From: Planctomyces sp. SH-PL14
Lineage (GTDB): Bacteria; Planctomycetota; Planctomycetia; Planctomycetales; Planctomycetaceae
NCBI RefSeq assembly: GCF_001610835.1
Contig: NZ_CP011270.1
Span: 5,164,001 to 5,228,000 of the forward strand
DNA: 64,000 nucleotides
Direction: 5' to 3'
Below are positions 8,732 to 29,419 of this stretch, piece after piece; the stretch's first letter is position 1; each line of letters starts with the position of its first letter. Made by a program: the position numbers and the translations under genes. A model generated the notes under the pieces. It saw nothing but the letters and a program-made list of their open reading frames with translations. It did no database searches and had not been told where the DNA came from.

Positions 8732-8786
8732 ACTGTTTGTATTCATAGCACGCAGCCCATGCGGCTGCCCAATTCGGAGAAGCGTG

Positions 8787-9332
<546 letters not shown>

Positions 9333-9392
9333 GCCGACCAGGGGAGCGGTGATCCTCCGCCGCTCCCAGGACAATCGTTGAAGGCACCCCTC

Positions 9393-10946: not shown

Positions 10947-11007
10947 GCCGCGACAGCGAATCGCGACGTCGTTCACAAGATCGCGCCCAAGCGCAGAGGA
11001 GATCAGC

Positions 11008-11727: not shown

Positions 11728-11740
11728 ACAGGAGATCGAC

Positions 11741-12996: not shown

Positions 12997-13575
12997 CTAG
13001 GTCTTCTTCAGAACTCCCGCCGCCACAGCGGCCTTCTCGATCGCCCTCTCGACTCGCTTTCGGACGGCCTCCTCTGTCGCCCCAGCCGATGCCGCCAGTT
13101 CATTCCAATCAGCACCGTTCATTCGTCTCTCGATGAGGGAGCGGTCGGCGTCGGAACAGTGCGTGTAGACTCGCTCAACGAGCTCCTGCATCTCAAGGAT
13201 CCGCTCGACGTGATCAGTCGACTCCTGCAGTGAGGCCAGCAACTCGTCACCGCCCAGTTCCGTACGCCGGGCGTCCCGCTTTTTGGCGTGTTGAAGAGCC
13301 ACTGCGTCATAGATTCGATTCTGTGCAATCTGCAGGAGCAGTGCTCTGAGCTTGGCGGGATCTGAGATATCGAGCTCATCCGAATCGAGAGAGCGGAAGA
13401 ATCGGGCGAGAACGGACTGACAGATATCCAATGAGTCGACGAACCGCCGGACCGAGCTCGACGTCATCCGAAAGCGAATGAATCGACGGAGCTCAGGCTC
13501 GTAGTCTCGAACAAGCGACGTACACGCGTCTTCATCGCCCGTGCGGATTCGCTCGATCAAGTTGGCCAGATCCAT
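12997..13575 (-). CDS. ECF-type RNA polymerase sigma factor (sigma-70 family)
   Basis: A 192-residue protein. The ATG at 13575 follows AGGAAGAG, and the open frame upstream of it shows no protein-like sequence. Region 2 is recognisable as LVRDYEPELRRFIRFRM, then DSLDICQSVLARFFRSL and KLRALLLQIAQNRIYDAV. Region 4 is a helix-turn-helix near the end (ADWNELAASAGATEEAVRKRVERAI). The D(I/V)CQSVLxRFF motif in region 2 is characteristic of the large planctomycete ECF groups, which are often tied to Ser/Thr kinase signalling. No anti-sigma gene is adjacent. The divergent neighbour at 13827 may be a target, and kinases lie within 10 kb. Confidence 0.85.
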   Translation of the reverse strand: MDLANLIERIRTGDEDACTSLVRDYEPELRRFIRFRMTSSSVRRFVDSLDICQSVLARFFRSLDSDELDISDPAKLRALLLQIAQNRIYDAVALQHAKKRDARRTELGGDELLASLQESTDHVERILEMQELVERVYTHCSDADRSLIERRMNGADWNELAASAGATEEAVRKRVERAIEKAAVAAGVLKKT

Positions 13576-13826
13576 CGCTCTTCCTGGAGGCTGTCCGACT
13601 GGCCGACGTTGGAAGGCCACGGATTGGGTGATAATGCCGTCACTCGACGATTGCAAATGCGCTGACGACCGCAGGCGAACGGGCGAGGTTCCAGGGGAAA
13701 AAACTCCAGAAAGTGTGTCCGGGCCGAGAAGGACCGCCGTTTGGATTGGCAGAACAGACATCCATGCGGGCTGCCACAGATCGATGTCCGATCCCCTCCG
13801 TCCGCAATCCAATCTGGAGAAGAGTG

Positions 13827-14129
13827 ATGAAAGGTCTGCTGAAACTGATGGTCCTGTCCGTCGTCACCGTTGTGCCCGCGGTGTGGCCGAGCAACGCTCA
13901 GGCCGGGCTCTGTGGTCCGCTGACGGTTGAGAACCGGTCGAATGAATGCGTGAAAATCTTCTTCAACAACGGCTACGTCGGCACCGTTCACGAAGGCGGG
14001 ACGATGACATTCCAGATGGAAGACCATCAGGATGCGACGACGATCAAGGCCATCTGCGAGGACGGTGATCAGGTAGCCCGCGTGCACTTTCACGGCTTGC
14101 GAAACCAGTACCGGATGGTGATCCCGTAA
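13827..14129 (+). CDS. Small exported protein sharing a domain with the gene at 15061
   Basis: A 100-residue protein. The ATG at 13827 sits behind GGAGAAGAG and opens a signal peptide (ending NAQAG). The mature 70 residues align across their whole length with the C-terminal domain of the protein at 15061-15795. Shared positions include (T/R)VxNxSxxC(V/L)(K/R)IF, then (Y/F)VGxVHxG, then a (F/A)-C-E-(D/E)-G stretch and a late FHG. Two Cys and several His residues are conserved between the pair. No named family was recognised. It is divergent from the ECF sigma gene and closely followed by a strong terminator. Confidence 0.7.
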   Translation: MKGLLKLMVLSVVTVVPAVWPSNAQAGLCGPLTVENRSNECVKIFFNNGYVGTVHEGGTMTFQMEDHQDATTIKAICEDGDQVARVHFHGLRNQYRMVIP

Positions 14130-14192: not shown

Positions 14193-14348
14193 GCGCGCCG
14201 AGCGAACCTTCAGACGTTTCGAAAATCCGCAGATTTCTTGTCCGGCCCCAGCGTCATCCCCGTTTTCATTGGCAGAACGCAACTCATACGGTAGTCCAGT
14301 CAGCCTGATGTTCAGGTCGCACAAGACTGCCTGTCCTGGAGAAGACTC

Positions 14349-14672
14349 GTGAAGACTCGCATTCTTGCCACTCTGTTTTCCATCGCCTTTGTGCTCCCCG
14401 CTGGCCTCGCCAACTCCGCGGAAGCGGGGCACGGTCATTTCCACGGCAGTATTCCCCAGAGCGGGTATTACGGGGGAGGCTACACCGCACCGATCTACCA
14501 CGGCCCTTCGGTTCACTACGATCGCGTCTTTCACCCGACCTACACCCATTGGACTCCGAGTGGCGGAGTGCACTCCCACGGCCACTACGACGCAGTTCCG
14601 CACTACACTCCGGGACACGTTGACACGGTCCACAACGGCCACATCCACGGCAACCCCTGGTATCACCACTAG
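14349..14672 (+). CDS. Small exported His/Gly/Tyr-rich protein
   Basis: A 107-residue protein starting at GTG, with GGAGAAG upstream at good spacing. The signal peptide is about residues 1-26 (ending NSAEA). The mature chain is about one fifth histidine, spread as GHGHFHG, then YHGPSVHYD, then HSHGHYD, and ends HGNPWYHH. This resembles the His-rich exported proteins at 579 and 1516, although the sequences are low complexity and homology cannot be claimed. A metal-buffering role is inferred from composition. Confidence 0.68.
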   Translation: MKTRILATLFSIAFVLPAGLANSAEAGHGHFHGSIPQSGYYGGGYTAPIYHGPSVHYDRVFHPTYTHWTPSGGVHSHGHYDAVPHYTPGHVDTVHNGHIHGNPWYHH

Positions 14673-15060: not shown

Positions 15061-15795
15061 TCAGTCGGAAATGTGCCAAGTCAGGAAGTGGCTGTGCCCA
15101 TGAAATTCGCTGCACGTCACCAGTTCGCCACCTTCTTCGCAGAAGGCTTCGAGGTGATTGTGGTGTCCATGCGCATGGGCGTGGAGATGCCCTGTCTGTC
15201 CTGCATGGACCTCGCCAACAAATTGACCATCGATGAAGATGCGCAGGCAGTGGCTTGAGTGATTGATCACTCGAAGTGTTCCAAAAATCTCTCGGGTCGA
15301 CTCACCCGAGTCAGAAGCCGCCTTGCTCTCCTCTTCGTCTTTCGCGGCGGTGGCAGCCAACTTGGACAAATCGGACTTCAGGGCACTGTCGGATACGATC
15401 GCTGCGACGGCCTGAAGCTCCGCTGACAGGTTTCGGCGCTTCGTGAGCTCGATGGCTTCCTTCCGAATTTCGTCAGCGGTCACTTCCGCCTTCTTTCCCG
15501 AGACCTTCTCTGCAACGGCCAGGCTTTCCGCCGCGAGCGCGAGGTCGACCGGATCCGGTGACGTCCGTGCGTCATGGATTCGCACGCCGAGGCCGCTCAG
15601 ATAGTCAAACGGAACTCCGAGGGCCTGCCGAAAATTCACGGTGCACGCCCTGGCGCAACACTTCTTGCCCTCCTTGGACAACTTGCATTGCACTTCCTTC
15701 GCCGCCTCTTCGGGCTTCTTCGCGTCGTCGGCGAACGCCCGAACAGACAGGAGTGCCACCAGCGACAACAGCGCAGACCACTTCCTTCCAGACAT
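15061..15795 (-). CDS. Exported protein with C-terminal Cys/His-rich domain
   Basis: A 244-residue protein. The ATG at 15795 follows GAGGAGAC and opens a signal peptide ending RAFAD. A segment near 38-55 contains four Cys (VQCKLSKEGKKCCARACTV), followed by a helical, charged middle region rich in Ala, Lys and Glu. The last 70 residues (from GTLRVINHSSHCLRIFI) are homologous to the whole mature protein at 13827, with an extra His-rich insertion (HLHAHAHGHHNH). It therefore looks like a longer relative that gained a Cys-rich head and metal-binding histidines. The function is unknown; an envelope metal-binding role is possible. Confidence 0.7.
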   Translation of the reverse strand: MSGRKWSALLSLVALLSVRAFADDAKKPEEAAKEVQCKLSKEGKKCCARACTVNFRQALGVPFDYLSGLGVRIHDARTSPDPVDLALAAESLAVAEKVSGKKAEVTADEIRKEAIELTKRRNLSAELQAVAAIVSDSALKSDLSKLAATAAKDEEESKAASDSGESTREIFGTLRVINHSSHCLRIFIDGQFVGEVHAGQTGHLHAHAHGHHNHLEAFCEEGGELVTCSEFHGHSHFLTWHISD

Positions 15796-15944
15796 GACAC
15801 GTCTCCTCAAATTGGCCTCGAAGCATCAAAAACAAACGATTCCCCGCGACTGCAGCACGACTGCCTTCGCCAGGAGATGGCCACAATACGGCCCCAGCCG
15901 GCGCATCACTCCGGCAAACGAGAGCGCGCGCCCTCAAACTCCAG

Positions 15945-18900
15945 CTAACGGTTGCCCGTCAAAACAGTCTCGCGGACCGGAGTTGATGGTTGAGCATCTG
16001 TCGAGCGGAAAACGACAACACCCTCGGGAAGCCGGAATGGGAATTGATCCACAATCCGGGCACCGGCCTCGCCTTCGGACGAACGCGCGTCCAACGCGTC
16101 TTCCGTCTCCGACCGATCGAGTCCGACACGCATTGCGGTAACGGCTTGCTGGCCGTCTGATCCAATACGGCGAACTTCATCTCGCCACAGCCCAACGACA
16201 GGAGTCCCGTCAATGGCTGCGACCGAGAGTTCCTTGAACACTTCGCGAGGAAGGCTCAGACGGTCCTTGCTCCGCGCGGCGGCCTGAATCGCTTCGACGT
16301 TGATGCTCGGGTCGAGCGGATACACGGAACTGGTCGACCCTGGGATGTCCAGGAAGACGTAGCTGGCTGGAGAGGCGCTGTAGACGACCAGAGAGATCAC
16401 TTTCTCGGATGGTTTGCGATGAGTCTCACCCGTCATCGACTCACAGGCAATCTCGAGAAGCTGTTTGCTGTTGGTCGGTTTGAGAGCGACGAGCGAATGA
16501 ACGGCGCAGTCGAAGTACGGCCTGGCAAACTGCAGAGACTCCTGGCGGCCGCGCCGCGCCGATCGGCAGTAGCCAAGAAGACGCTCGATATCGTTTCGCC
16601 GCGTGAGCTGGAATTCTCGCAGACGCTGTTCCTGCAACTCTGCCAACGGCTGGTCAAGCTCCTCGATCATCGTTCGGAGGCAGAACAGAGCTGCCTCGAT
16701 TTCATCGCGGGTCAGCGACCGATCCAGCCGTTCTTCGTCCAGGTAACGATCGAGAATCGCTCGCAGCTCGGCAGCCTGATCAGCGATCTGCTTCTCGCAG
16801 TCCGAGGGGGCGGTACCGACCGGATGGTTCGCCACGGCCATCAGCAGTTCCGCCAGCCGCGCGCAGATTGCGACGTCCTTCTCTCCGATCCGATTCAAAT
16901 GTTCGCGGTTGGCGGCAACCGCCTGTGTGTTCGTCTGCTTAGCCAAAGCCTCAGCCGACTTCGGCTGTTCCACGACGTTGCCCTCTTCCTTCGTCGATAG
17001 GAAGTCCTTTGATGGGGCCGTTGGGTTTCCAGCGGCCGACGTCTGGGCGGCGGTGGCCAGAGCGAGCTCTTGCTTCGCAAGCCGCAACTGCTCCTCTGCA
17101 ATCGGTGGATCGAAGGCGGCGGATCCCGGAATCAGCAGGCTGAGCGCGTACTTGTACCTCAGCCGCGTCTGGAACCGCGGACGGAGCTCCGCAGGCAGGT
17201 AACTGCACGTCCGCAGGGCACGCCGGTAGTCGTCGGCCGCCTCGGACGGGTCGATCGGGTAACTGAAGAGGTTGCAGTCGCCAATCCGCTCCTGCGTATT
17301 CACCAGTCGTTCCACCAGCCGATTCTTCGTCTGACGGTAGTTCGACTCTCGGCTCTCGCTGGTGCGGATGTTCTGAAAGAGGTCCACGATCTTGCCGTAA
17401 AGCGATCGATACTGACTCAGCGCAACGTCCCGTTCTCCGAGGAACCGCGTCGCCATCGCTTTGCCATGAAGGTTGTGAAAGTAGAGGATTTCCTTCTCAC
17501 GGTTGACGATGCCTCCGAGTCCGGCTCGATCGTTCAAAGCCTGAAGAATCTCGGACGAGCTATCAAAGTCCTTGACAGCCTTGGTGAACTTGCATGAGCT
17601 CATCCTGAGCCAGGCTCGGCGGTGATAGAAGGCGGCGCTGATTGGCATCTCGCCCCGGGGATCGACGCTCTGAATGCTCGCCTTCGCCAGTTCCAGTTGC
17701 TCCTCGGCCGCTCCTTCTCGCCCCTGCCGCTGAAGGGCTTCGGCATGGCGGCAGAACACAAAGGTCTTAAACGAAGCCGGCGTCTTGTCTGCGCCGAACA
17801 CGGAGTTGGCTTGAGCGAAGTGGCGACAGGCCGCGTCGTAGTCTCGCGAGACGTCCAGGGCGAACCAGCCGTGGTCGGCGTGGCACATCGCCTGCATGGC
17901 CTGCATGTGGATCGTTGTCTTGGCCTCCTCGCGATATTTCTCGATGGCTCGTGCGTAGGCCTTGTCCGCGGCCACAGGATCCTTCCGCAAGGCATGCTGC
18001 AGTACCGCGAGAAAGTGGAAATCGACGGCTTCGAGGGCTGAGGATGGCTGTTGGGCTACGGAATCCGCCGCCTCTGCGAGTGCATTGAGGGATGCCACGA
18101 TCTCGCCGGCCTTAGACTTCCATTGTTCATCGCTCGTTGCCCGCAGTTTCTCCATGTGTTCGAGGCGCCGCCGAACCTTGTCGTTCGACGGCGAGTGCTC
18201 ACGCGCCTCGCGCATCCGGTTCAATGCTTTGCTTGCGGCCTGTTCGATCTCATCAACGGAGATCATCTCCTGGCCGGCGCTGCGCGTCGTCTCGGTCTCC
18301 TTCAGGATCTCGAAACGCAGGCCGGGATGAAACCAGGGGGACTCGTCGAACCACCAGTTTCCGAAGGTGCCGGGCACCATCGCGATCATGCACTTTCGAA
18401 TCTCTTCCGAGGGGACCCCCGGCTCCGGAAGCTTGCCCCGCACTGTGAAATGAAACTCCCCCAGCGAGTCATTGATCCAACCGCATGAGGGGGCCTGATT
18501 GGAGGACAGGCTGGCATCCAGGTAAATCTTCATACCCTGGAACAGGTACGTCGCCTTGAAGGACTTCTGGTCACCGACCAGATTGGCGCGGTCGCGGAGC
18601 GCCTTGAGCAGTGCCGATGTGAAAGGAGAGTGCCCCTCGCCACCTTCCGCACGGGCGGAATCGGCCGCGTTTTGGAGGGCGTGGCTGGCCACAATTGCCT
18701 GGAAACCCGACGCCTTGAAAGCCGACGGATCATGGGCGCCTTGATCAGAGCCGTCGTTGCGCCAATCACGTCCAAACAACGCACCGGAGGCACAGGAGTC
18801 CAAAACAAGGAGCTTGTGCCGCGCCTTGGACTTCGACAGCTGTTTGACCAGCTGCTCCATGCCGATCGTCGTATGTTCTTCAGGCTGTCGGTTGACGCAC

Positions 18901-19484
18901 GTAACGTCATAAGGCAGCAACGCGCCCTGGGTATTCTGCCGGCCCGACTTCAACAGGACTCCGTGTCCACTGAAGTAGAAAAGGACGCAATCGTCTTCCG
19001 CCGCTTCCTCGGCCTTGGCGATCTCGTGCCAGATCGCCCGTTCGGTCGCAGCTTCGCCGACAAGCAAGGTCAAATCATCGGGCTGAAATCCGAAGTGGGC
19101 TTTCAAAACCTCGGCGACTTCTTTTGCGTCATTCTCGGCATTCCGCAACGGCACCACTCCATCACCCTGGTCGGGGCGGCCCGCATAGTTGATGCCGATG
19201 ATGACTGCTCGCCGAGTGCGATACTCCACCGGAGAGGTCTGGCCGTGGAACGTCATTCCCCGGACGCCCTGCTCGGCTGACTCAATCGGCTTGGTCTCAG
19301 CGCTTTGCGCACTGGACGAAGGCTCCGAAAATGTCTCCTCTGGAAGCGAGGCCCCAGGGCTTGGGTTGACGGCGGCTTCGTCGCGCACCTGCGGAGTCGC
19401 CCCTGCATCACTGGCGTCCTGACCGAAGACGACGGTACGTCCCATCAGAATCAGGCCGATCGTCAACAACACGCGAAGTACCAT
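15945..19484 (-). CDS. Exported caspase-family (peptidase C14) protein with TPR-like region
   Basis: This 1179-residue protein starts with a signal peptide (about 1-21). A caspase p20 domain spans about 90-330: RRAVIIGINYAG, then NAENDAKEVAEVL. The catalytic His is in YFSGHG (H174) and the catalytic Cys in LDSCASGAL (C231). Both dyad residues are intact, so protease activity is plausible; bacterial members usually cut after basic residues. About 450-800 is helical with repeated A/L-rich pairs that resemble TPRs, and the last 300 residues are not recognised. It is followed on the same strand (toward higher coordinates, upstream) by a second caspase-family gene, and two membrane kinases lie beyond that. 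It may be exported to the periplasm-like space. Confidence 0.87.
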   Translation of the reverse strand: MVLRVLLTIGLILMGRTVVFGQDASDAGATPQVRDEAAVNPSPGASLPEETFSEPSSSAQSAETKPIESAEQGVRGMTFHGQTSPVEYRTRRAVIIGINYAGRPDQGDGVVPLRNAENDAKEVAEVLKAHFGFQPDDLTLLVGEAATERAIWHEIAKAEEAAEDDCVLFYFSGHGVLLKSGRQNTQGALLPYDVTCVNRQPEEHTTIGMEQLVKQLSKSKARHKLLVLDSCASGALFGRDWRNDGSDQGAHDPSAFKASGFQAIVASHALQNAADSARAEGGEGHSPFTSALLKALRDRANLVGDQKSFKATYLFQGMKIYLDASLSSNQAPSCGWINDSLGEFHFTVRGKLPEPGVPSEEIRKCMIAMVPGTFGNWWFDESPWFHPGLRFEILKETETTRSAGQEMISVDEIEQAASKALNRMREAREHSPSNDKVRRRLEHMEKLRATSDEQWKSKAGEIVASLNALAEAADSVAQQPSSALEAVDFHFLAVLQHALRKDPVAADKAYARAIEKYREEAKTTIHMQAMQAMCHADHGWFALDVSRDYDAACRHFAQANSVFGADKTPASFKTFVFCRHAEALQRQGREGAAEEQLELAKASIQSVDPRGEMPISAAFYHRRAWLRMSSCKFTKAVKDFDSSSEILQALNDRAGLGGIVNREKEILYFHNLHGKAMATRFLGERDVALSQYRSLYGKIVDLFQNIRTSESRESNYRQTKNRLVERLVNTQERIGDCNLFSYPIDPSEAADDYRRALRTCSYLPAELRPRFQTRLRYKYALSLLIPGSAAFDPPIAEEQLRLAKQELALATAAQTSAAGNPTAPSKDFLSTKEEGNVVEQPKSAEALAKQTNTQAVAANREHLNRIGEKDVAICARLAELLMAVANHPVGTAPSDCEKQIADQAAELRAILDRYLDEERLDRSLTRDEIEAALFCLRTMIEELDQPLAELQEQRLREFQLTRRNDIERLLGYCRSARRGRQESLQFARPYFDCAVHSLVALKPTNSKQLLEIACESMTGETHRKPSEKVISLVVYSASPASYVFLDIPGSTSSVYPLDPSINVEAIQAAARSKDRLSLPREVFKELSVAAIDGTPVVGLWRDEVRRIGSDGQQAVTAMRVGLDRSETEDALDARSSEGEAGARIVDQFPFRLPEGVVVFRSTDAQPSTPVRETVLTGNR

Positions 19485-19828
19485 GTTCGCCCTCTCGACT
19501 CCGGCCGTCCGCCTGGCCCGCCCCGAATCAAACCCCGAACGCTCACGCCCCGTGACGCTCTTTTGCCCCAGCGAGCTCTCGATTCCCCCGGAGGACGCTG
19601 CGGAATGATCCTAAAACTCCACAATGGCCGAGTCAAACTTCTGCACGGCTGCCCCCTTTAGAAACCCAAACATTCTTCTTCGTCCTCTCGGCAAATCCTT
19701 TGACGGGACCCGCGTGCGAGGGCGTTCCGTTCCGGTTGTGACAAAGATGTGCGCGGGCTGCGAAATTGCTACGTCGATCTCACACCCCGTCTGCCGACGC
19801 AGTCGGTGATCCGGCGAGGTCTCGCTCC
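19485..19828. other. Intergenic region between the two caspase-family genes
   Basis: About 340 bases with no gene or clear repeat. Both neighbours are on the minus strand, so a promoter for the 1179-residue gene probably lies here. The gap argues against tight co-translation of the two. Confidence 0.4.
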
Positions 19829-22066
19829 TTACCGCAGTGGCGCACGAGTGACCCAGGACCGGAGCATCACGGAAGGCTGTTCAGCAGACGTTCGGGACAG
19901 CCCTCTCGTTTCCTTTCCGGACGATGCAGTCTCCATCAGTTGCCCAAAAGGAGATGTTGACTCTCCTTTCAAGGCACGGGTTCGTTCCAGGTCAGCCATC
20001 CCTCCCTGCTCGAGGAACTCATACTTCGGCTCCTCCCGCTCGGTCGTAACAGGACTCGCGAATACGACGAATCCTTCAACCCCCTCACTGTCGCTGTTCA
20101 CGGTGGCGATTTGAGGTCGGAACTGGCCTCCTCGTGGGAGGGAGCCCGAAGCCCACTGCGTAATGCTCAAATCACTTCCCAGGAACAGACAGCTCACCCA
20201 CCAGTGGCGGACGCCCTCGTTGCGGAGCTGGACTTCCACACTCTCTCCCGCGTAAAGCTGCGGTGGATTGAGAATCTCCTCACCCTCTCGCTCGACTTTG
20301 ACGGTCAACGTCAAGTCGCCCGCCGGGGCCTCGCCGTTCACTCCTTCCGCGACCCGCCAGACGTTCTGCCAGATAAAAATCTTGCGGACGTCGTCCGTCA
20401 GCTGATCCGTGAGACGTTCCAACTCTCGGGCATCGGATGATGACGGTATCGGCCGAATGGCTCGTGCAGGTTGCAGTGTGGCCAAGGGCAGCGAGGGACG
20501 CTTCGCGGTCGCCTCGCCCTTGAGCCTCGCTTCCGGGATGCGATTCGACAGGGGGGATAGGATTCCCGTCGGCTCCTGAACTTCCAATCGGTAGTCCTCT
20601 TTCGCCGTCGTTGGGGAGACCAGATGGAGGATCCAGTCCGCCGAGGACGCCTCGGGGTGCAGGACAAAGAGGTCTCGGCTTGCCGGGGGGATTCGATTGA
20701 CCGCTCCTCGCAGGGATTCTGCGGTCGAGGACGCGACCGTGTCGTCGATTCGAAGATGAAGCTTGATCCGGGTGTCGCCAAGGTTTCGGGTCGACATCAG
20801 GCATCGCGACGTCTCAAGGAGCTGCAGAGCCGTCACGACGGACTGGCCGTCGGCGGCACACGGAACCCCCACGGAATTAGACGCAGTCGCGGAGACGACT
20901 TTCAGGTATCCCTGAGCCGACTCGGGTTCCACATCGCCCGAGTCGTGAACACGGAGAACGGAGCCGGGAGTGAATCCGTGAAGTTCACCTGCGTTGATCT
21001 GATACTGACCATTTCGAAGTCGAACTCCGTATCCGATCTCGTGGTCCCATTTCCGGGTCCCGACGACCTGTTGTCCCAGGTCCCCTTCGAAAACGGGAGT
21101 CGGGCCCCGGGCTCCTCGTTCGGAACAGTACAGGTTCAGGATCGACTGACTGAGATCCCGGTAGCTGTTCGGCTTATTGGGCCGCTGCATGGCCTTCACG
21201 AGCGAGTAGGTAAAGAGGCCAAAGTAGTTGCCAGGAACGCGCGCCGCGTCGGCAGGGCGCGGCAATTCGGGGGCTTCCTCAAAGGATTGGGCCGCGAAAA
21301 AGGCGGTCAGTGTGCCCCCAGACTCCCGCCGCTTCGCGGGGACGCGGGCTGACACTTTGTCATCCTGCCCGGACGGTCCAGTTCCGCGCCGGTCGGCGGG
21401 GGCCGGAATCTTCAATTCGTCGGGAAGAACCATGCGTGAGACTTCCGCCGGAGCCTCGCCTTCGATCGCGCGGGTCATCGTCCCGGAGTGGCACGTATCG
21501 AACGTCACCCAGACATGCGCCCCCTTGTCGGCCAGCGCATTGAGCCAGGTTTCAAACTCGTCGTCGACAATGGCGTTGGGAAGCTTCTGCCCATCCCAGG
21601 CTTCGACATCCGCCGGGAGATAGACTTCGTTGAGGTCATCGTCCTCGGACGGGTCCGTAGTCCGCCCACCGGTTTGGGGGACGGGAACCTGCGTCCCGTG
21701 TCCCGAGATCAAGATCACGATCTGATCCCCCGCCTTGGCGTCGGCAATCAGTCTTTCGAATCCCCGGACGATATTGGCTCGCGTCGGACGGGTAGACGTG
21801 TCGCTTTCCCAACCGAGTAAGGTCGTGATGTCGTCCTCTTGAAATCCGAACTGTTCCTTCAGCATCGCCTTGAACAGCGGCAAATCGTTCGCGGGGCCCT
21901 TCAGCGATCGAATGGACTGACACGCCGGATAGCTGGTGCAACCGACGAGCAACGCGCGGCGGGAACCGACGGTCATCGGCGGCGTTTCCGCCCCGTGCAA
22001 GTGAACGTTCGAGGCGCCCAATGACACGCAACCGAACAGGGACAGCAACACAACGACGCGATGCAT
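19829..22066 (-). CDS. Exported caspase-family protein with C-terminal DUF4384-like domain
   Basis: A 745-residue protein. The start is placed at the ATG of a signal peptide (MHRVVVLLSLFGCVSLGAS); an in-frame start 67 codons upstream lacks one. The C14 domain covers about 35-390: RRALLVGCTSYP, the catalytic His in ISGHGTQ (H123), an acidic EDDDLNEVYLP stretch, and the catalytic Cys in FDTCHSGTM (C192). This order with the acidic insertion is typical of metacaspase-like proteins. The C-terminal 170 residues contain YAGESVEVQLRNEG and a strand-rich WWVSCLFLGSDLSITQW segment, resembling DUF4384, a domain often joined to bacterial caspases. It is divergent from the kinase gene at 22473 and could share its promoter region. 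Confidence 0.88.
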   Translation of the reverse strand: MHRVVVLLSLFGCVSLGASNVHLHGAETPPMTVGSRRALLVGCTSYPACQSIRSLKGPANDLPLFKAMLKEQFGFQEDDITTLLGWESDTSTRPTRANIVRGFERLIADAKAGDQIVILISGHGTQVPVPQTGGRTTDPSEDDDLNEVYLPADVEAWDGQKLPNAIVDDEFETWLNALADKGAHVWVTFDTCHSGTMTRAIEGEAPAEVSRMVLPDELKIPAPADRRGTGPSGQDDKVSARVPAKRRESGGTLTAFFAAQSFEEAPELPRPADAARVPGNYFGLFTYSLVKAMQRPNKPNSYRDLSQSILNLYCSERGARGPTPVFEGDLGQQVVGTRKWDHEIGYGVRLRNGQYQINAGELHGFTPGSVLRVHDSGDVEPESAQGYLKVVSATASNSVGVPCAADGQSVVTALQLLETSRCLMSTRNLGDTRIKLHLRIDDTVASSTAESLRGAVNRIPPASRDLFVLHPEASSADWILHLVSPTTAKEDYRLEVQEPTGILSPLSNRIPEARLKGEATAKRPSLPLATLQPARAIRPIPSSSDARELERLTDQLTDDVRKIFIWQNVWRVAEGVNGEAPAGDLTLTVKVEREGEEILNPPQLYAGESVEVQLRNEGVRHWWVSCLFLGSDLSITQWASGSLPRGGQFRPQIATVNSDSEGVEGFVVFASPVTTEREEPKYEFLEQGGMADLERTRALKGESTSPFGQLMETASSGKETRGLSRTSAEQPSVMLRSWVTRAPLR

Positions 22067-22472
22067 ATCGCGACTCTCTCGTGAGAGCGACCGGAGGTAG
22101 GTTCCCCGATCACGGGACCAGGATGAACTTGAAAACGGCAGAACGGCCCGTCGCGGACACAAATATTCTCGAAAAGGCGCAGACTTTCCCAGACGGATGG
22201 GAGCGGCCAGGAGACCGAAGCGGAGCCCTGGCGTCACGGCAGCCCGAAACTTGTTGCACGCAACCATGACGATTGTGCCCCGCCCGGATTAGGATCGCAA
22301 CCATCTTCCCATGTTCGTCGGAAGCGTTGTCCAGGGCGGTCGGAAACGCCGTTCATTCCAGGGAAGGCCTGAACGGGCCCTCTTCGATCGTGTTGGCTCG
22401 CTCGCCGAAGACCGCGGACGGGGCCTGACCTGCACGTTTGCGAACGTCCCTGCCGGTTGAAGGAAGCAGAGC
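22067..22472. other. Divergent promoter region between caspase and kinase genes
   Basis: About 400 bases between a minus-strand caspase gene and a plus-strand kinase gene. Promoters for both should lie here. A ribosome-binding AAGGA precedes the kinase start. No clear palindrome or small gene was found by eye. Confidence 0.4.
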
Positions 22473-24380
22473 ATGGCCGAGCACAGCGCCTTTGATCGTT
22501 CCGACAACCACAGTCGGTCCGTGCGAGACGATGAAACGTCGCGAACACATTCGGAGACTCAGGTCATCGAGCTTGCGACGGGAGAGCGGGTGCGAATGCT
22601 CATTGAAGATATGCGGGCGCGATGGGCCCGAGGCGAGCGGCCCCTATGCGACGAGTATCTCAGTCGGCTGCCCGACCCGACCTTCAACGTCGACGCCACC
22701 CTCGACCTGATCTACTGCGAGTATTTGCTCCGACGAGAGTACGGCCTCGACGCGAACGCGGACTCCTTCGTTGTGAGGTTTCCAAAGTTTGAAAGCGCGA
22801 TTCGACGGCAACTCGACCTGGAAAGCGCCTTCCAGGAGACGAGCACGAGCCCGGCGCCTGATCCCGCGTCCGCTCATCCGTTGCTGCGGGATCGGGTGCT
22901 GCCGGCACCACTCGGCCGTTATCTCGTCGTCGCACCGCTGGACGCTGGCGGTCAGGCGACGGTTTACCTCGGCCTCCATCCGACTCTCCGCAAGAACGTT
23001 CTCCTCAAGCTGTCGCGGCATGCCATCCGGTCAGGAATTGACAGTACCGATGGACTCCTGCAAGAGGGGCGGCTGCTGGCGACCCTGGAGCATGAAAACC
23101 TCGTCCGTGTGTACGATGTCGACGTGGTGGACGGCTACCCACTGGTCGTCATGGACTACGTGCCCGGGCAATCGTTGGACCAGTACTTCCGATCTCATCG
23201 CATCGCTCCCGATGCCGCCGCGAAGATCGTCCTGTCGGTTGCGCGGGCGGTCGACTACGTGCATCAGAAGAACCTGCTGCACCTCGACATCAAGCCGAAG
23301 AACATTATTGTCGACGAGTCCGGCGTGCCGCGTCTGATCGACTTTGGGCTGGCCCGACTTGTCGACGCCTGGAACCCATCGTCGGCGGACGATCGAGTCT
23401 CGGGAACGCTTCAATACATGCCTCCGGAGCAGATTCGGGGCGACTCCCAGAACGTCGGCCCGGCAACGGACGTTTTTGCGCTCGGCGGTGTGCTGTACTT
23501 CCTGCTGACCGGCAAGGCTCCTTATCCGGCTGGGTCGGTGAAGGAGTTGGTGTCGCTGGTGCAGGCTGGGAAGTGGGATGCGATCGCTCTGGCCGCCTCC
23601 CCCTCGCCGCGATTGCAGCGGGTCTGTCGCCGGGCCCTGGCGCCAGCGGTTGCGGACCGCTATGGATCAGTCGCAGAACTGGTGCGGGACCTTGAGCGGG
23701 CCGTCTCGACGCGGCGAATGGCTATCGTGGCCACGCTGTTGTCGCTTGGTGTTCTGCTCCTGCTCGGGATTGGGACGTGGGTCAATCTATCTGCACGCCC
23801 CCCGCGCGGAACCGGATCCGCGAACCGCGCGGTAGTGCCTGGGACTTCGGTTCCCAAGTTGGTCGTCACATCCTGGAACATGGGCCGATTTGAATCCCTC
23901 GAAGATCGCCTGCCTCTCTCAAACGGGGACGAGTTGCACTTGGAAGCCGTCATTCCCCCGGGAGTCCAGGCCGCCCTCATGCATCATGACATTGAAAACG
24001 GCTGGACGGAGCTTCGTCGATGGGAGGAGGCGAAGGACGAGCGAGTCGTTCATTACCCCGATGTGGAATCAACGACTCCTTTGGAAGGGGAGCCGGGCCC
24101 CCAGGTCATCCTGTTGGTCGCGGGTGAGGACGTGGCGAGCCTAGTGAATGTTCTGAACGAGCGGCAGGCGGACCTTCGGCAAGTATCCAATCTGTCGAGC
24201 TACTCGCTCGTTCACGTGGACAATGTTGAAGTGAAGGAGGAAGCCACCGGCAAGGGGTTGGGAGGACCGATTTCAAGGCGGGAGGTCGAGCGATCGATGC
24301 CGAGGGAGCTTGAGGCCGTTCAACGACAGATCCGCGGCAAGCAGGGAGCGGTCTCTGGCGTTGCCTTCTTCAAAGAGTGA
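22473..24380 (+). CDS. Membrane Ser/Thr protein kinase with extracytoplasmic domain (first paralogue)
   Basis: A 635-residue kinase. Residues 40-115 are the planctomycete kinase N-terminal region (RWARGERPLCDEYLSRLP, then LIYCEYLLRREYG and RFPKFE). The catalytic domain runs about 148-410: glycine loop LDAGGQATVYLG, Lys179 in NVLLKL, catalytic loop HLDIKPKN (270-277), DFG at 290-292 and the MPPEQ segment. HLD in place of HRD makes it a non-RD kinase. One transmembrane helix follows (about 418-440). The outside domain (about 450-635) contains LPLSNGDELHLEAVIPPG and LMHHDIENGW and ends GVAFFKE. The kinase at 24546 has the same architecture and ending. The adjacent caspase genes suggest a joint pathway, which is inferred. 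Confidence 0.9.
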   Translation: MAEHSAFDRSDNHSRSVRDDETSRTHSETQVIELATGERVRMLIEDMRARWARGERPLCDEYLSRLPDPTFNVDATLDLIYCEYLLRREYGLDANADSFVVRFPKFESAIRRQLDLESAFQETSTSPAPDPASAHPLLRDRVLPAPLGRYLVVAPLDAGGQATVYLGLHPTLRKNVLLKLSRHAIRSGIDSTDGLLQEGRLLATLEHENLVRVYDVDVVDGYPLVVMDYVPGQSLDQYFRSHRIAPDAAAKIVLSVARAVDYVHQKNLLHLDIKPKNIIVDESGVPRLIDFGLARLVDAWNPSSADDRVSGTLQYMPPEQIRGDSQNVGPATDVFALGGVLYFLLTGKAPYPAGSVKELVSLVQAGKWDAIALAASPSPRLQRVCRRALAPAVADRYGSVAELVRDLERAVSTRRMAIVATLLSLGVLLLLGIGTWVNLSARPPRGTGSANRAVVPGTSVPKLVVTSWNMGRFESLEDRLPLSNGDELHLEAVIPPGVQAALMHHDIENGWTELRRWEEAKDERVVHYPDVESTTPLEGEPGPQVILLVAGEDVASLVNVLNERQADLRQVSNLSSYSLVHVDNVEVKEEATGKGLGGPISRREVERSMPRELEAVQRQIRGKQGAVSGVAFFKE

Positions 24381-24545
24381 TGGGATGCCCGCGCGGAGAA
24401 AGCGAATCAGTCCGGTTAGGCGTCGTCACCAAGACTCCCCGGAGTTCTTTACTTCGAAGGAACGCGCTGCCAGCCACAACGGAGCCCTGACCGGGTATTG
24501 ACCGATTGGCTCTGACCACCCCGCCACTGGCCGACCGACCGGCGG

Positions 24546-26399
24546 CTATTCTTTCTGGAACGCAACGCCAACAACGTGTCCTCGCGCCTTCTCCGCTTCC
24601 AGCGCCATCGCCCGCATGGCGTCCTCCAGGCGAGTTTCCGGAATGGGGCGATCGACGGGAACTCCGAATCCGCGGCCCCCGTGCTCCGTCCGGACCCCGG
24701 AGGAATCCACCTGGATGACCGCATAGGGCGAGATCGCATTGACCGTCATCACGGTCGAGCCGTGCTTCTTCAACGCTGCCACGAGAGACGAGGTCGTCGG
24801 CGCACAGCACAGAAGCAACAACTGCGGGCCCGGCCTTCCGGTCAAGGGGAGGTTCTGATCGCGGGCCGGGTAGTGAATCTCCCGACGCTCATCTGAATTC
24901 GGCCACTCCTCCAAGACTGTCCATCCATTGTCCAGATCGTGGTGCAACAGCACCGCCTCCTGGCCGCGGGGAACAGTCGCCTGCAGATGAAGTTCATCCC
25001 CATTCACCAGCGGAAGTCGTTCGTGAAGCGGCTCCAGATGGTCGTTGCTCCAGGCCGAGGCGAGCAGCCGTGGATGGGACAATCCTGCAGTCGGACCGTC
25101 CAATGCGGCTGGAACTGTCGGCCGACGAGGTCGTAGGAATACTGCCAGAATCAGACACGTCAGAACCATTACAGCGGTCACAACGATGGCGGTCCGCCGT
25201 CGCGAAACTGGAAGGAGACAGGCTTCTGCTCGCCTGGCGAACTCGCCCGCGGATGGGCAACGCCACCTGGGGTCAAACTGCAGCGCGCTGCGACACAACT
25301 GCTTCAAACGGCCGTCGTGGGGCGCATCTTTTAGCGCCTTACCGTTCCACCGAGCAAAGCGAACGAGCGGCATGATCTGCTCAACGGTCTCCGCGACATA
25401 AGGAGGCCGTAGCGTCATCATGAAGTAGAGAATTCCTCCAAGCGCGAAGATGTCGGACGGACGTCCAACGGCATCGCGATCTCCAATGACCTGCTCGGGC
25501 GACATGAACTGCAACGTGCCGGAAACCTCGTTGCTGTTGCTTTGCTGTGTCCAGGCGTCGATAAGGCGGGCGAGACCAAAATCGATGAGACGCGGCCGCC
25601 CATCCTCGTCGACGAGGACGTTCTTGGGCTTGATATCGAGATGCAGAAGATTCTTCTGGTGGATGTAGTCCACCGCATGCGCGAGTTCGCTGACGAGCTG
25701 AGCAATATCTTTGTCGGCCAGCGTGCGCCCGCGCACGTATTGGTCAAGCGACGGGGCGGAAACGTGCTGCATGACGACGATCGGGTATCCCTCGATGACG
25801 TCCACATCAAAGACCCGAACGAGATTCTCATGATTCAGGTTCGCAAGAAGTCTTCCCTCTCTGAGGAGCGCCTCGGCTTCCGCTTGCCGGTGCGCCATTC
25901 CATGTCGTCCCACTTTGATGACAACGTTCTGGTGTAACGTCGGATGCACTCCCAGGAAGACGTCGGCCTGTCCCCCGGAGTCCAAGCGGGAGATGACGGT
26001 GTAACGGCCGATCTGGGCCGGGAGCACTTTGTCTCTGAGGAGTGGATGGGACGACACTTCTCCCATCGGAGGCTTTGATGTCGTGGCGGAGGCCCGGTTC
26101 GAGGGGACTTCTGGTCCGAGCTTCTCTGCGAACACTGCCGCAAACTGCGGAAAGCGGTTGCAGAACGCCTCGCGACTTGCCGGAAGCCCGTAGCGTTGGC
26201 GCAGCAAGAACTCGCAGTGCATCAATTCAACCGCGTCACTGCCCTGCAGTGCCTGATCCCCAATCAGGCGAAAATAGGCTTCACACGTAGGGCGTTCACC
26301 TTGTGCCCAACGCCTCTGCATGTCATCGATTAGATGAGGCACCATTTTCGGGGCTTTCGCAGTCCTCGTTTCAATTTCAAGGCGACGTCCAACCGACAT
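24546..26399 (-). CDS. Membrane Ser/Thr protein kinase with extracytoplasmic domain (second paralogue)
   Basis: This 617-residue paralogue of the kinase at 22473 is convergent with it. It has the same N-terminal region (RRWAQGERPTCEAYF, LMHCEFLLRQRYG, RFPQF), glycine loop LDSGGQADVFLG, Lys162, HLDIKPKN (253-260), DFG (273-275) and MSPEQ. The membrane helix comes after about residue 400 (TAIVVTAVMVLTCLILAVFL). The outside domain shares LPLVNGDELHLQATVPRG, LLHHDLDNGW and the terminal VVGVAFQKE. The high similarity over kinase and sensor domains indicates a local duplication followed by inversion. No strong ribosome-binding signal precedes the chosen ATG; a start at the Met19 codon is possible. 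Confidence 0.9.
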   Translation of the reverse strand: MSVGRRLEIETRTAKAPKMVPHLIDDMQRRWAQGERPTCEAYFRLIGDQALQGSDAVELMHCEFLLRQRYGLPASREAFCNRFPQFAAVFAEKLGPEVPSNRASATTSKPPMGEVSSHPLLRDKVLPAQIGRYTVISRLDSGGQADVFLGVHPTLHQNVVIKVGRHGMAHRQAEAEALLREGRLLANLNHENLVRVFDVDVIEGYPIVVMQHVSAPSLDQYVRGRTLADKDIAQLVSELAHAVDYIHQKNLLHLDIKPKNVLVDEDGRPRLIDFGLARLIDAWTQQSNSNEVSGTLQFMSPEQVIGDRDAVGRPSDIFALGGILYFMMTLRPPYVAETVEQIMPLVRFARWNGKALKDAPHDGRLKQLCRSALQFDPRWRCPSAGEFARRAEACLLPVSRRRTAIVVTAVMVLTCLILAVFLRPRRPTVPAALDGPTAGLSHPRLLASAWSNDHLEPLHERLPLVNGDELHLQATVPRGQEAVLLHHDLDNGWTVLEEWPNSDERREIHYPARDQNLPLTGRPGPQLLLLCCAPTTSSLVAALKKHGSTVMTVNAISPYAVIQVDSSGVRTEHGGRGFGVPVDRPIPETRLEDAMRAMALEAEKARGHVVGVAFQKE

Positions 26400-26714: not shown

Positions 26715-28244
26715 TCAGTTGAATCCAACTGTCGGGAACGAGAAGGTGGCTTCCAACCAGCCTATGGCTCGCGCAAGCAAGTTTGTTGGGACACCCGCGT
26801 AATGTCGATCTGACATCGTCTTTGGCGCATGGTCGAGGAAGACTGCCTCGATGCCATTGAACTCAGCGTTGTCTCGCAGAAATGAGGCGCTCGTCTTCTT
26901 CAGGCTCTTGAAGTCCCCGGTTTGCCCGAGGGACTTCCGAAGGCGTTCGAAGGCGACGCGGATCGGATCCCGTCGAACGAGCTTGCCATTCCTGAGTTCC
27001 TCGCCTCGAAGAGTCTTCCCATTCGAGGAAAGCAGCAAATGGTTCGGATCGTCAGACCGTAGCTTCTTCAAGAGCATGAGCGTGATGCCCCACAGTTTGT
27101 ACGTGACCGTGGGAACCCGCTCGAAGTGGATGGTCTTTCCTCGCTTGCGAGTCAGTGTTCCGGCGTCCCAATCGATGCTCTCAGGCTTGAGCGTGCTGAT
27201 GTCGACCTGCGTCATTCCGCAATTCAGGGCCAGGAGGATGTAGAGCTTGAGGTCCTCGGGAGCCGCTGCGAACAGTTCTCGGATCTGTTCCACAAGGTAG
27301 GTCTTGATGACGGGCGGTTCCCGAGTGATCCGCAGAGCCCGGGACGTCAAGTTCTTCGGGAGCTGGGTAAGAACGTCTGTTTCGTGGAGCCAGCGGATGA
27401 ACATCTTCGCCGTCTTGAAGATGTCCGCGGCATATGTCTTCGTGAAGCGTTTTCCTTCGCAGTCCTGCAGTAACGCCTGATGGAGATCATCGACATGCTT
27501 GCCCCCGACTGCCGAAGCATCAAGGCCTGGGCCGAGCTTTCTCTGCATGTACTGCAAGTGCCGGCGGATGTTGTCTGCAGCCGTGGGAGTGATCCCGGAC
27601 TCACGCCGCTTGACGACGTATCGGTCGACGAATGCCTTCAAGGTGGACTCGCGAGGCGTCTCTTGCGAGGGTTGGACGCTGGCGGCGGAGAGGCGATCTT
27701 TCCAGATCACATTGCTGATGTACCTCTCGACAATTTGTTCCAGTTCCTCTTCCCGATCCTCGGCAACACCCAGTTCGTCAACGAGATCGACGGCGGCAGA
27801 GCGCGCAACCTTGGCCACATCGGACTGGGCGAGCGGTGCCTGGATTTGACCGATCCGCAATCCAAATCGACGAACTGGGTAGTCTGTCCGCCTGCTGACT
27901 CCCGGTGGCTTCCGGCTGTTCATTCGCCGATGGAGGTCATCGATCTTCGCCGCAGCGACGATCGCTGCCGATTGGTCTTCCACCGTCCGTGCGGCCAGAA
28001 GAACTCGCTCCCACTCCACGATGGCCCGTTCGTACTCCGCTCGGTGTGGTTTTTCAAATGCCACCTCAGCGTCAATCAGTAGCTTCTGACGCTCAAAGTC
28101 CGCCAGGGCCCTGGAATAGGCCTCCGCGTCAGACTTTCCATTCCCTCCATCGAAGTACAGGATCCGCCCCTTGTACATCTTCTTCCATCGCCCACGTCGC
28201 CCCGCTCCAGTCTGCCAAGTCAGCTTGAATCTCTTACGTGCCAT
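26715..28244 (-). CDS. Tyrosine recombinase/integrase-like protein with degenerate active site
   Basis: A 509-residue protein. The start is the ATG behind GGGGAG; the open frame upstream is not protein-like. Residues 200-300 fit the core-binding SAM-like domain (TLKAFVDRYVVKRRESG, then FKTAKMFIRWLHE). The catalytic domain is about 315-495: LYILLALNCGMTQVDISTL, RKRGKT, FKSLKKTSASFL, FLDHAPKTMSDRHYAGV. The nucleophile region HY (481-482) and LDH (His472) are present. The first catalytic Arg is replaced by Thr (about 345), and the HxxR box reads KSLK. It may be inactive, or may belong to the divergent planctomycete lineage of integrases. It sits at the right border of the accessory block, next to an rluA-type gene. 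Confidence 0.75.
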   Translation of the reverse strand: MARKRFKLTWQTGAGRRGRWKKMYKGRILYFDGGNGKSDAEAYSRALADFERQKLLIDAEVAFEKPHRAEYERAIVEWERVLLAARTVEDQSAAIVAAAKIDDLHRRMNSRKPPGVSRRTDYPVRRFGLRIGQIQAPLAQSDVAKVARSAAVDLVDELGVAEDREEELEQIVERYISNVIWKDRLSAASVQPSQETPRESTLKAFVDRYVVKRRESGITPTAADNIRRHLQYMQRKLGPGLDASAVGGKHVDDLHQALLQDCEGKRFTKTYAADIFKTAKMFIRWLHETDVLTQLPKNLTSRALRITREPPVIKTYLVEQIRELFAAAPEDLKLYILLALNCGMTQVDISTLKPESIDWDAGTLTRKRGKTIHFERVPTVTYKLWGITLMLLKKLRSDDPNHLLLSSNGKTLRGEELRNGKLVRRDPIRVAFERLRKSLGQTGDFKSLKKTSASFLRDNAEFNGIEAVFLDHAPKTMSDRHYAGVPTNLLARAIGWLEATFSFPTVGFN

Positions 28245-28384
28245 CTCCCCGTGTTCTCCAGCGAGAACTGATACAAAACTCGGATACAATTCTTCGCGGG
28301 AAGTGCCAGATTCTGTATCAATGATCTCGCAATATGCGGGAGATTTGTGGATTTCGCACGCCGTTGGCGTGGCAGACCGTCCGA
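28245..28384 (-). promoter_or_regulatory. Promoter region of the recombinase-like gene with GATACA repeats
   Basis: A 140-base AT-richer gap (about 47% GC for one 60-base line). On the plus strand GATACAAAAC and GGATACAATTC occur as direct repeats, and an inverse TGTATC lies about 40 bases further on. Such spaced half-sites could bind a repressor or the recombinase itself. No binding partner is known. Confidence 0.3.
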
Positions 28385-29419
28385 TCAAGGAACCGGTTGC
28401 GCCGACTCCGCTCGAAGCTCCGTGATCGTCTCCCGCATGTCTTCCGGCAGCCGCGCCGTGAACTCCAGCCACAGGTTCGTGACCGGGTGGGCGAACGCGA
28501 GACGCCCGGCGTGCAGCGCGTGGCGGCGGATCGCGTAGCCGGTCTCGATCCCTTCATCCTCGGCCGCGTCTTCCTCTTCCTCGCTCATCGGCGGTTCCTT
28601 GAGCGGGCGGATGTGACCGTGCGGCAGGTAGAACTCGTCGCCGATCAGCGGGTGGCCGATGTGGGCGAAGTGCACCCGGATCTGGTGGTTCCGCCCCGTC
28701 AGCGGCGTCGCGGCCACCAGGGTGTGGCGGGCGTACTGTTCCAGGACCTCGTAATTCGTCTGGGACGGCCGGGCATCGAGGGCGTCGGCACGGCAGGACA
28801 TGAGGACGCAGCGGCCGGTCGGGACCCGGCCGATCGGGAACTTGATCGAGCCCTTCCGCTCCTTGGGGCGGCCTTCGACGAGGGCGAGGTAGGTCTTGGA
28901 GACGCGGCCCGCTTCGAAGGCGGCGGCGAGCATGCGGTGGGAGTGGTGCTGGAGGGCGATGACCATGACGCCGCTGGTCTGGCGGTCGAGGCGATGCATG
29001 AGGCCGGGGCGGATGAGGCCGCGGGGTTGGAACCGCTGGTCGGCCCAGTGCTGGAGGATGTTGACGAGGGAGCCGTACTGGAACTCGCCGGTGGGATGGG
29101 CGATGACGCCGGCGGGTTTGTCGATGACGAGGATCCAGGGGTCTTCGTAGAGGATCCGGAGAGGCCCCGGGTGTCCTTCCATGACGCGGTCGGGGGGCTC
29201 GGCGAGGCGGATGGTGACGCGTTCGCCGGTGAAGACGCGGCGGGTCTGCTGGATGGGGGCGTGGTCGATCCAGGCGTTTCCTTCGCGAACCATGCGCTGG
29301 AGGCGCCACATGGTGTAGTTGCGAAGGTGGCGGGAGAGGAACGAGTCGATGCGGTCGCCGTCGGAGAATTCCTCGACGGTGAGTTCGATGCGGTCGGTAT
29401 CGGAGGAGCCGGAGAGCAT
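28385..29419 (-). CDS. RluA-family pseudouridine synthase
   Basis: A 344-residue enzyme that should isomerise uridine to pseudouridine in structured RNA, probably rRNA. An S4-like RNA-binding domain occupies about 12-75 (RIDSFLSRHLRNYTMWRLQRMV). The catalytic domain begins ILYEDPWILVIDKPAGVIAHP. The family motif HRLDRQTSG carries the catalytic Asp (D145), and the C-terminal block TGRNHQIRVHFAHIGHPLIGD is intact. The order and length match the RluD/RluC group; the target base cannot be assigned. An acidic insertion (SEEEEDAAEDEG) lies before the last strand region. A copy of the dispersed 300-bp repeat begins 30 bases upstream of its start. Confidence 0.93.
   Translation of the reverse strand: MLSGSSDTDRIELTVEEFSDGDRIDSFLSRHLRNYTMWRLQRMVREGNAWIDHAPIQQTRRVFTGERVTIRLAEPPDRVMEGHPGPLRILYEDPWILVIDKPAGVIAHPTGEFQYGSLVNILQHWADQRFQPRGLIRPGLMHRLDRQTSGVMVIALQHHSHRMLAAAFEAGRVSKTYLALVEGRPKERKGSIKFPIGRVPTGRCVLMSCRADALDARPSQTNYEVLEQYARHTLVAATPLTGRNHQIRVHFAHIGHPLIGDEFYLPHGHIRPLKEPPMSEEEEDAAEDEGIETGYAIRRHALHAGRLAFAHPVTNLWLEFTARLPEDMRETITELRAESAQPVP

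Follow-up and report, generated by a model that had tools for sequence, protein, structure and literature searches.

The window analyzed here is a 64,000-nucleotide stretch of the genome of Planctomyces sp. SH-PL14 (NZ_CP011270.1, positions 5,164,001 to 5,228,000). Within it lies a 13.4-kb cluster in which two caspase-type proteases, CasA and CasB, are encoded beside two transmembrane Ser/Thr kinases, K1 and K2. An initial annotation had proposed these four open reading frames (ORFs) as a unit, and all four are present where it placed them, with CasB and K1 divergent and K1 and K2 convergent, as it described. The unit is real, but incomplete. Four further genes belong to the cluster, encoding an extracytoplasmic function (ECF) sigma factor (SIG), a secreted protein (SEC), and two small secreted proteins (SML and HIS), and a promoter-like element, TGTCC-N17-CGTT, is repeated among them. 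In window coordinates, the parts are as follows.

12997..13575, minus strand: SIG, an ECF sigma factor (PF07638, Pfam 1.4e-12) with DSLD at the usual sigma-2 DAED position
13716..13741, plus strand: promoter-like element upstream of SML, which was outside the first discovery set
13827..14129, plus strand: SML, a small secreted protein with a hydrophobic N terminus, homologous to the C-terminal domain of SEC (SEC profile, 6e-14)
14239..14264, plus strand: promoter-like element upstream of HIS, likewise outside the first discovery set
14349..14672, plus strand: HIS, a small protein rich in histidine, with a GTG start and what seems to be a signal peptide
15061..15810, minus strand: SEC, secreted, with a Cys-rich stretch near the N terminus and a His-rich C terminus; no Pfam match
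15945..19484, minus strand: CasA, an exported C14 caspase whose long C-terminal region is termed the CasA tail (Pfam, dyad, hydropathy)
19829..22066, minus strand: CasB, an exported C14 caspase whose C-terminal tail contains a predicted beta-sandwich; the start is likely 22066
22134..22159, minus strand: promoter-like element upstream of CasB (dyad enumeration, window scan)
22328..22353, plus strand: promoter-like element upstream of K1 (dyad enumeration, window scan)
22473..24380, plus strand: K1, a transmembrane Ser/Thr kinase with an ectodomain (ECTO) from about residue 462
24546..26399, minus strand: K2, a K1 paralogue of the same architecture, with ECTO from about residue 444

Exported caspases and receptor kinases

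Are CasA and CasB genuine caspases? A Pfam search finds them to be the sole Peptidase_C14 matches in the 8.44-Mb single-contig genome, both above the cut-off of 21.4 bits (CasA, E of 2e-19 and 70.5 bits; CasB, E of 9e-15 and 55.5 bits). The dyads claimed for them are intact, H174/C231 in CasA and H123/C192 in CasB (numbered from 22066). All seven CasA-type domains aligned, one of them from a more distant G133 protein, retain the catalytic His and Cys. Both motifs are also present in five of five CasB sequences, with some variation, such as GHA for GHG; one of nine CasB-like proteins (L076) gave no match to the Cys pattern used. The start of CasB is probably 22066 and not 22267, because the signal peptide begins there and the promoter-like element at 22134 to 22159 falls between the two starts.

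Judged from a scan of N-terminal hydropathy with a set threshold, both proteases are very probably exported from the cytoplasm, and the signal peptides first read in them are kept in homologues. An N-terminal hydrophobic peak is found in six of seven CasA homologues, five of five CasB, and four of four SEC proteins, as well as in all seven CasB-like proteins examined (from nine CasB-like loci). The CasA of Stieleria is under the threshold, with a short hydrophobic core visible by eye. For several caspase homologues the start as called is farther upstream than their signal peptide.

Both proteases match the PADLOC caspase model, CasA at 6e-13 and CasB at 1e-13. Assignment to the EACC1-type caspases was rejected, as neither CasA (89.9 bits) nor CasB (26.4 bits) reached the curated cut-off of 140 for caspase_w_EACC1 (NCBIfam NF047832). 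An AlphaFold2 model of the CasB tail has a predicted local distance difference test (pLDDT) score of 74.5. Foldseek gives it nine matches at an E of ≤0.001 (best, 2.3e-4), with low TM-scores by query, to AlkC, MSP-type, PapD-like, and beta-arrestin chains.

K1 and K2 are paralogous membrane kinases of one architecture, as proposed, being 46% identical overall and 39 to 40% identical in the C-terminal domain. Both have the features of Hanks-type receptor kinases, with the catalytic Lys (VLLKL and VVIKV), HxD (HLDIKPKN), and DFG (DFGL) in place. One strong membrane helix, at about residue 417 in K1 and 405 in K2, separates the kinase domain from ECTO in the hydropathy scan, and the C-terminal domains should therefore face the same side of the membrane as the exported caspases, in agreement with the topology first suggested.

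What is ECTO? Its AlphaFold2 model is good (pLDDT, 87.5), and Foldseek returns no PDB match at an E of ≤0.001 (best, 0.023). VIA-align 2 lists only sandwich folds, mostly immunoglobulin-like, and its best hit, the AGS-C domain of a Pycsar cyclase, has close rivals. A known fold was nevertheless not assigned, since the best Z of 7.4 is under the tool's level of 8 and no PDB match is significant. DUF4384, considered as a lead for both ECTO and the CasB tail, is absent among the Pfam families listed at an E of up to 1. Homology between ECTO and the CasB tail is not supported by profile comparison (probability, 0.5%; E of 0.13), in which a short GD-containing stretch aligns. A further kinase in the window (40766 to 42574, minus strand) carries a C-terminal 3-keto-disaccharide hydrolase domain and is possibly a sugar-sensing receptor kinase.

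The sigma factor and its putative promoter

SIG is 47 to 49% identical to the sigma factor that adjoins the kinase in a related cluster (G042, described below). The profile of the cluster sigmas, which includes SIG itself, gives it 1e-81 and the genome's next ECF 4e-18. At the DAED position the seven aligned SIG proteins read DSLD, DSLD, DSID, ESLD, ESVD, DSVD, and GDSD. A second-position Ser occurs in none of the 13 other ECFs of the genome (of 16) that are displayed at this stretch. Pairing with kinases is usual in this host, since, of the 16 other ECF hits, nine are no more than 1,003 bases away from a kinase stretch, and in G042, Stieleria tagensis, Roseimaritima sediminicola, and CA13 an ECF sigma gene adjoins or overlaps the kinase ORF.

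Kinases are reported to activate ECF sigmas by phosphorylation in the sigma-2 DAED region (PMC8103513, PMC8999054, PMC13147305), and in EcfK a linker residue is phosphorylated as well (PMC13147305). Outside ECF43, the mechanism of other groups may differ, and these may have Ser/Thr in or near the DAED motif (PMC8999054). SIG is the likely target of the kinases.

What might SIG control? We infer that it reads the element TGTCC-N17-CGTT. In a joint enumeration of 5-mer/4-mer dyads over 13 upstream regions, TGTCC..CGTT was among the top results, and inspection of 16 upstream regions gave two extra copies, before SML and HIS. Although spacers of 15 to 18 were permitted, every one of the six copies has 17. 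The window holds 4 copies in 64 kb against 0.62 expected, a count reached in none of 100 shuffles, and all 4 lie upstream of cluster genes in the correct orientation, at 85 (SML), 84 (HIS), 67 (CasB), and 119 (K1) bases from the start codon. Enumeration in the window alone ranks the same dyad first, together with a one-base shift of it, and 1 of 300 Markov shuffles reaches at least 4 places. The related clusters in L064 (19.5 kb) and L085 (15.2 kb) each hold a single copy, which lies in the divergent gap and is oriented toward the caspase side. An element is thus at the matching place in two of the five clusters compared; in L080 and L066 copies occur elsewhere, outside the cluster gaps.

The background in other loci is 7 hits in 611,577 bases, 3 of them distinct, as some loci overlap. 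A stricter pattern, TGTCCG-N15-CCGTT, has 11 copies in the genome, 3 of which are in the cluster, against 6 for a reversed-pattern control. The 8 strict copies outside the cluster are all within mechanically called ORFs, a location that is uninformative because 3 of the 4 window copies also fall within ORFs of that caller. Further downstream bases are common to the copies before SML and HIS, which may therefore be duplicates and not two independent events. The case for the element is made by these two copies, by the window count, and by the two other genomes.

Related clusters, fusions, and surroundings

The host genome contains 87 kinase stretches, so a kinase near a caspase is unremarkable by itself. 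What is remarkable is the recurrence of the same ectodomain kinase, sigma factor, and caspases in other genomes. These were found by one profile scan of genome contigs with the CasA alignment, which gave eight loci, combined with genomes of the host's order; L066 and L084 are the same contig, as are L067 and L081, and each is counted once. Stieleria tagensis and Roseimaritima sediminicola are Pirellulaceae, of the order Pirellulales, and the other carriers from the CasA scan are planctomycete or Pirellulaceae. The adjacency on which the initial annotation had staked its proposal proved to be conserved. In G042 (L064), kinase and SIG share a strand and diverge from a His-rich gene, SEC, CasB, and CasA. 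Kinase and SIG are likewise divergent from SEC, CasB, and CasA in S. tagensis (L083), and from CasB and a CasA-tail/caspase fusion in R. sediminicola (L085). Together with the ectodomain kinase, SIG, CasB, and CasA (or the fusion) thus occur in three genomes besides the window. A fourth, CA13 (L080), has SIG, kinase, and CasA on one strand, the kinase ECTO being matched only in pieces.

Other loci hold parts of the set. OFTM354 (G086, L067) has CasB and CasA on a 6.4-kb contig, and a metagenome-assembled genome (MAG; L082) has SEC and CasA close to a contig end. In Neorhodopirellula pilleata (L086) an ectodomain kinase is divergent from a CasA-tail fragment, with no SIG hit, and no caspase is present in a further MAG (L087), which has a kinase whose CasA-tail matches are weak and an equally weak-looking SIG-like hit. 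SEC adjoins CasB or CasA in G042, G084, G523, Stieleria, and the MAG L082. In G523 it shares one contig with CasB, whose match starts at base 1, and the ectodomain kinase is on another; in G014 SEC and a CasB-like gene are on different contigs. Proteins resembling HIS by eye are encoded near the clusters in L064, L083, L086, and L066.

How often do the parts occur together? A census sampled 170 genomes of the host's order. ECTO is found in 8 of them (3 of the 8 weaker than an E of 1e-10), and a search with just the two window ectodomains matched 2 of 150 genomes. The CasA tail occurs in 15 genomes, 5 at an E of <1e-40, in the fifth of which (G041) the tail is part of a kinase. SEC occurs in 5 genomes, and CasB in 63 at an E of ≤0.001, of which 5 are strong (E of ≤1.2e-140). 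The following overlaps use "strong" cuts for CasB and the CasA tail that were chosen post hoc, and their hypergeometric values ignore the kinship of genomes. Strong CasB shares 4 genomes with SEC (7e-7), 4 with the strong CasA tail (7e-7), and 3 with ECTO (7e-4); ECTO shares 3 with SEC (7e-4) and 2 with the CasA tail (0.018). Four of the 10 ECTO genes of the order lie beside a caspase (the two in the window, G042:C19, and one in G037). In a phylum-wide sample the CasA profile matches 135 of 392 genomes, and among the matches listed all except the window's own CasA cover the caspase part only.

Domain swaps add a different kind of evidence. The R. sediminicola fusion (L085:8507-12682, 1,391 amino acids) consists, in order, of a pseudokinase, a membrane helix, a CasA tail with TPRs, and a C14 caspase. 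Its kinase domain keeps HADLRPAN without a DFG, the helix lies at about residues 479 to 497 with RRR just before it, and the C14 domain, at 1111 to 1318, has SGHG and DACHSG. The caspase of this protein is expected to lie outside the membrane. A G037 protein (L071) joins a Guanylate_cyc domain, one membrane helix, and ECTO (E of 9e-10), and it is followed in the same orientation by the gene for a CasB-like exported caspase; no sigma hit is found on that stretch (L071, L135). A single G041 protein (L078), encoded beside a SIG-like gene, combines an intact kinase, a membrane helix, and the CasA tail, in that order. The R. sediminicola fusion and the G037 protein strengthen the case for a functional link between ectodomain and caspase and suggest contact beyond shared expression.

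Two caspase-fold proteases side by side also recur, since CasB-like caspases of G073, G146, G074, and G077 adjoin large TPR-CHAT proteins, a second caspase-fold protease (L068, L069, L070, and L072; these are selected neighbors at four loci and give no rate). In the present cluster CasA is in the place of the CHAT protein. Directly upstream of three other CasB-like caspases are genes for related small proteins (L074:11302-12159, L075:11015-11857, and L076:2521-3288) with apparent signal peptides, no Pfam family, and a conserved GDGDGDLDLWVYD...NW domain at the end. These are possibly counterparts of SEC.

As to the surroundings, a tyrosine-recombinase-like protein is encoded directly beyond K2 (26715 to 28472, minus strand; Pfam Phage_integrase E of 6e-4, below the cut-off). 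The GC fraction is 0.578 at this gene, 0.605 in the cluster, and 0.63 and 0.66 on the flanks. Given the low GC and the neighboring recombinase-like gene, the cluster is possibly part of an acquired island. No direct repeats of at least 18 bases that would mark island ends were found around the cluster, and a tRNA scan and Rfam at gathering thresholds found nothing. Adjoining SIG on its other side (7562 to 12883, plus strand) are genes for a MacB/FtsX permease, an HlyD-type adaptor, an ATP-binding cassette ATPase, and a second MacB/FtsX permease; a MacB/FtsX permease is also near the L066 cluster. Metal-type P-type ATPases, recognized by motif, sit roughly 2 to 10 kb from three clusters (window 2146-4620, L083:17108-19336, and L066:995-3508), with the differing motifs SPC, CPC, and CPC, respectively, a difference that weighs against a heavy-metal link. 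In L066, MerR and MerT/HMA genes adjoin SEC.

A candidate signaling module and its alternatives

Taken together, the cluster may be an extracytoplasmic caspase, receptor-kinase, and ECF-sigma transmembrane signaling module with feedback, a reading to which we give a probability of about 0.5. CasB, CasA, SEC, and the small proteins would act outside the cytoplasmic membrane, K1 and K2 would span it, and SIG would act inside. (i) A stimulus would change the exported proteases, with the CasA and CasB tails as sensing or scaffold parts. (ii) The proteases would bind or cut a partner, and the kinase ectodomain would be altered as a result, the signal running from caspase to kinase. (iii) K1 and K2 would phosphorylate SIG, probably at the Ser of DSLD. 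(iv) SIG would then drive the TGTCC-N17-CGTT promoters of K1, CasB (probably CasB-CasA-SEC), SML, and HIS, giving positive feedback. The stronger proposal, an outside-in protease receptor pathway in which the exported caspases act on the kinase ectodomains, the ECF sigma is phosphorylated, and both caspases and receptor are fed back upon, with receptor and caspase fused in one lineage, is advanced tentatively, and we consider it rather doubtful as it stands.

Several observations weigh against the module. Against strict coupling of ectodomain and caspase, 6 of the 10 ECTO genes lack a neighboring caspase. Four of these (L065, L128, L129, and L130) are ECTO kinases with an ECF sigma and no caspase on the stretch, and two (L131 and L132, the latter at a contig end) have ECTO with neither ECF sigma nor caspase. 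Conversely, HKST-UBA51 (G084, L066) has SEC, CasB, and CasA without ECTO at an E of ≤0.001, and no kinase or sigma of the cluster profiles is found on its 43.7-kb contig (L066/L133/L134); the completeness of this genome is 100. In the window SIG is 9.4 kb from the nearest kinase. It also keeps acidic residues at the DAED position (two in DSLD), unlike the uncharged replacement in EcfP/ECF43, so phosphorylation there need not be a switch. As for the element, the joint enumeration is not significant alone (8 of 60 shuffles also reached 4 regions), and random window stretches of the same lengths give some dyad in at least 4 places in 16 of 300 draws. No copy precedes SIG, SEC, or K2 in the window, or the cluster genes in Stieleria (L083), CA13, and HKST-UBA51. 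Over all loci scanned, a spacer of 17 has 10 hits, and spacers of 13, 15, and 16 have 9, 9, and 8; 17 is unexceptional at that scale, and the enrichment is therefore local.

Could the caspases be the output of the pathway instead of its input? This is the main rival of the relay, and we find it quite conceivable, if short of probable. An unrelated cue, from the envelope or the environment, would be detected by the kinases and SIG, which would simply induce the secreted caspases and small proteins. These would be effectors, for instance in envelope turnover or in action against neighbors or predators, and no signal would pass from caspase to kinase. The repeated element would place CasB, K1, SML, and HIS under one control in just this way, the ectodomain kinases that have a sigma and no adjoining caspase fit it, and the published PknS-EcfK pathway controls effectors likewise (PMC13147305). 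The contact suggested by the pseudokinase-helix-tail-caspase fusion and by the G037 cyclase-ectodomain protein, which adjoins a CasB-like caspase on a stretch with no sigma hit, goes beyond the co-expression that such a program requires.

The cascade of SAVED-CHAT and PCaspase in the type III clustered regularly interspaced short palindromic repeat (CRISPR) system of Haliangium is cytoplasmic and triggered by nucleotides. Like CasA and CasB, its two different caspase-fold proteases are encoded together, but here both proteases have signal peptides and no Cas domain is found among the proteins scanned. EACC2 systems and ECF54/CHAT neighborhoods also place a caspase-fold protease near an ECF sigma, sometimes with a TPR protein (PMC8195603, PMC8999054); the present cluster differs in having no EACC or CHAT domain by Pfam, signal peptides on its proteases, and receptor kinases. 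A defense or cell suicide module of the caspase kind (EACC-like, a cyclic-oligonucleotide-based antiphage signaling system, or a CRISPR-associated protease), regulated by kinase and sigma, would suit the PADLOC matches, the presence of an ECF sigma and a TPR protein in EACC2 caspase neighborhoods (PMC8195603), the patchy distribution, the lower GC, and the integrase-like neighbor. The caspase_w_EACC1 matches of CasA and CasB cut both ways, being present but under the cut-off (CasA, 89.9 against 140). No EACC, SAVED, or Cas domain was found in the eight proteins scanned (Pfam, PADLOC), and the signal peptides place both proteases outside the cytoplasm, which disfavors an intracellular phage trigger; we regard such a module as improbable. 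An accidental neighborhood has in its favor the abundance of planctomycete kinases, sigma factors, and caspases (the 87 kinase stretches, the 63 of 170 genomes with a CasB match, and the ECTO genes without a caspase), but it is very improbable, as the ectodomain kinase, sigma type, CasB, CasA, and often SEC recur jointly, with the element in three of those genomes.

How much of the signaling module is new? Kinase-ECF pairs, caspase-sigma operons, ECF54 with CHAT, and metacaspases with possible signal peptides are already known. PknT-EcfP of Vibrio parahaemolyticus and PknS-EcfK of Xanthomonas citri resemble the cluster in having a transmembrane Ser/Thr kinase gene near an ECF sigma, but the accounts of them consulted here mention no caspase (PMC8103513, PMC13147305). 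The SIG proteins of the cluster mostly have [DE]-S-[LIV]-D at the DAED position, where EcfP has STTA. Operons of Myxococcus, Anaeromyxobacter, Haliangium, Sorangium, Ralstonia, and Fibrobacter hold genes for a caspase homologue (metacaspase) and a sigma-70 factor together, but no receptor kinase is mentioned with them in the section that describes them, and the four groups given there for multi-metacaspase operons do not include the Planctomycetes (PMC3501461). As 46 metacaspases have N-terminal helices that are maybe signal peptides (PMC3501461), caspase export by itself is not a new idea. For the combination of exported caspases, receptor kinases, and an ECF sigma, no description was found in the open-access literature, in line with the initial annotation, which knew of no system of such composition; subscription papers mostly lay outside this search.

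Overall, what would such a module mean for the family? Caspase homologues are common in bacteria, yet a pathway is known for few of them, and most discussion treats them as enzymes of cell death or defense. In this cluster, exported caspases are accompanied by a likely receptor, as well as by a sigma factor and a promoter that are the likely targets, and the question of what caspases signal to becomes testable. We know of no counterpart to a caspase-based membrane relay that signals from outside to inside, if that is what the cluster encodes, and a natural fusion of pseudokinase and caspase across the membrane would be an unusual kind of receptor.

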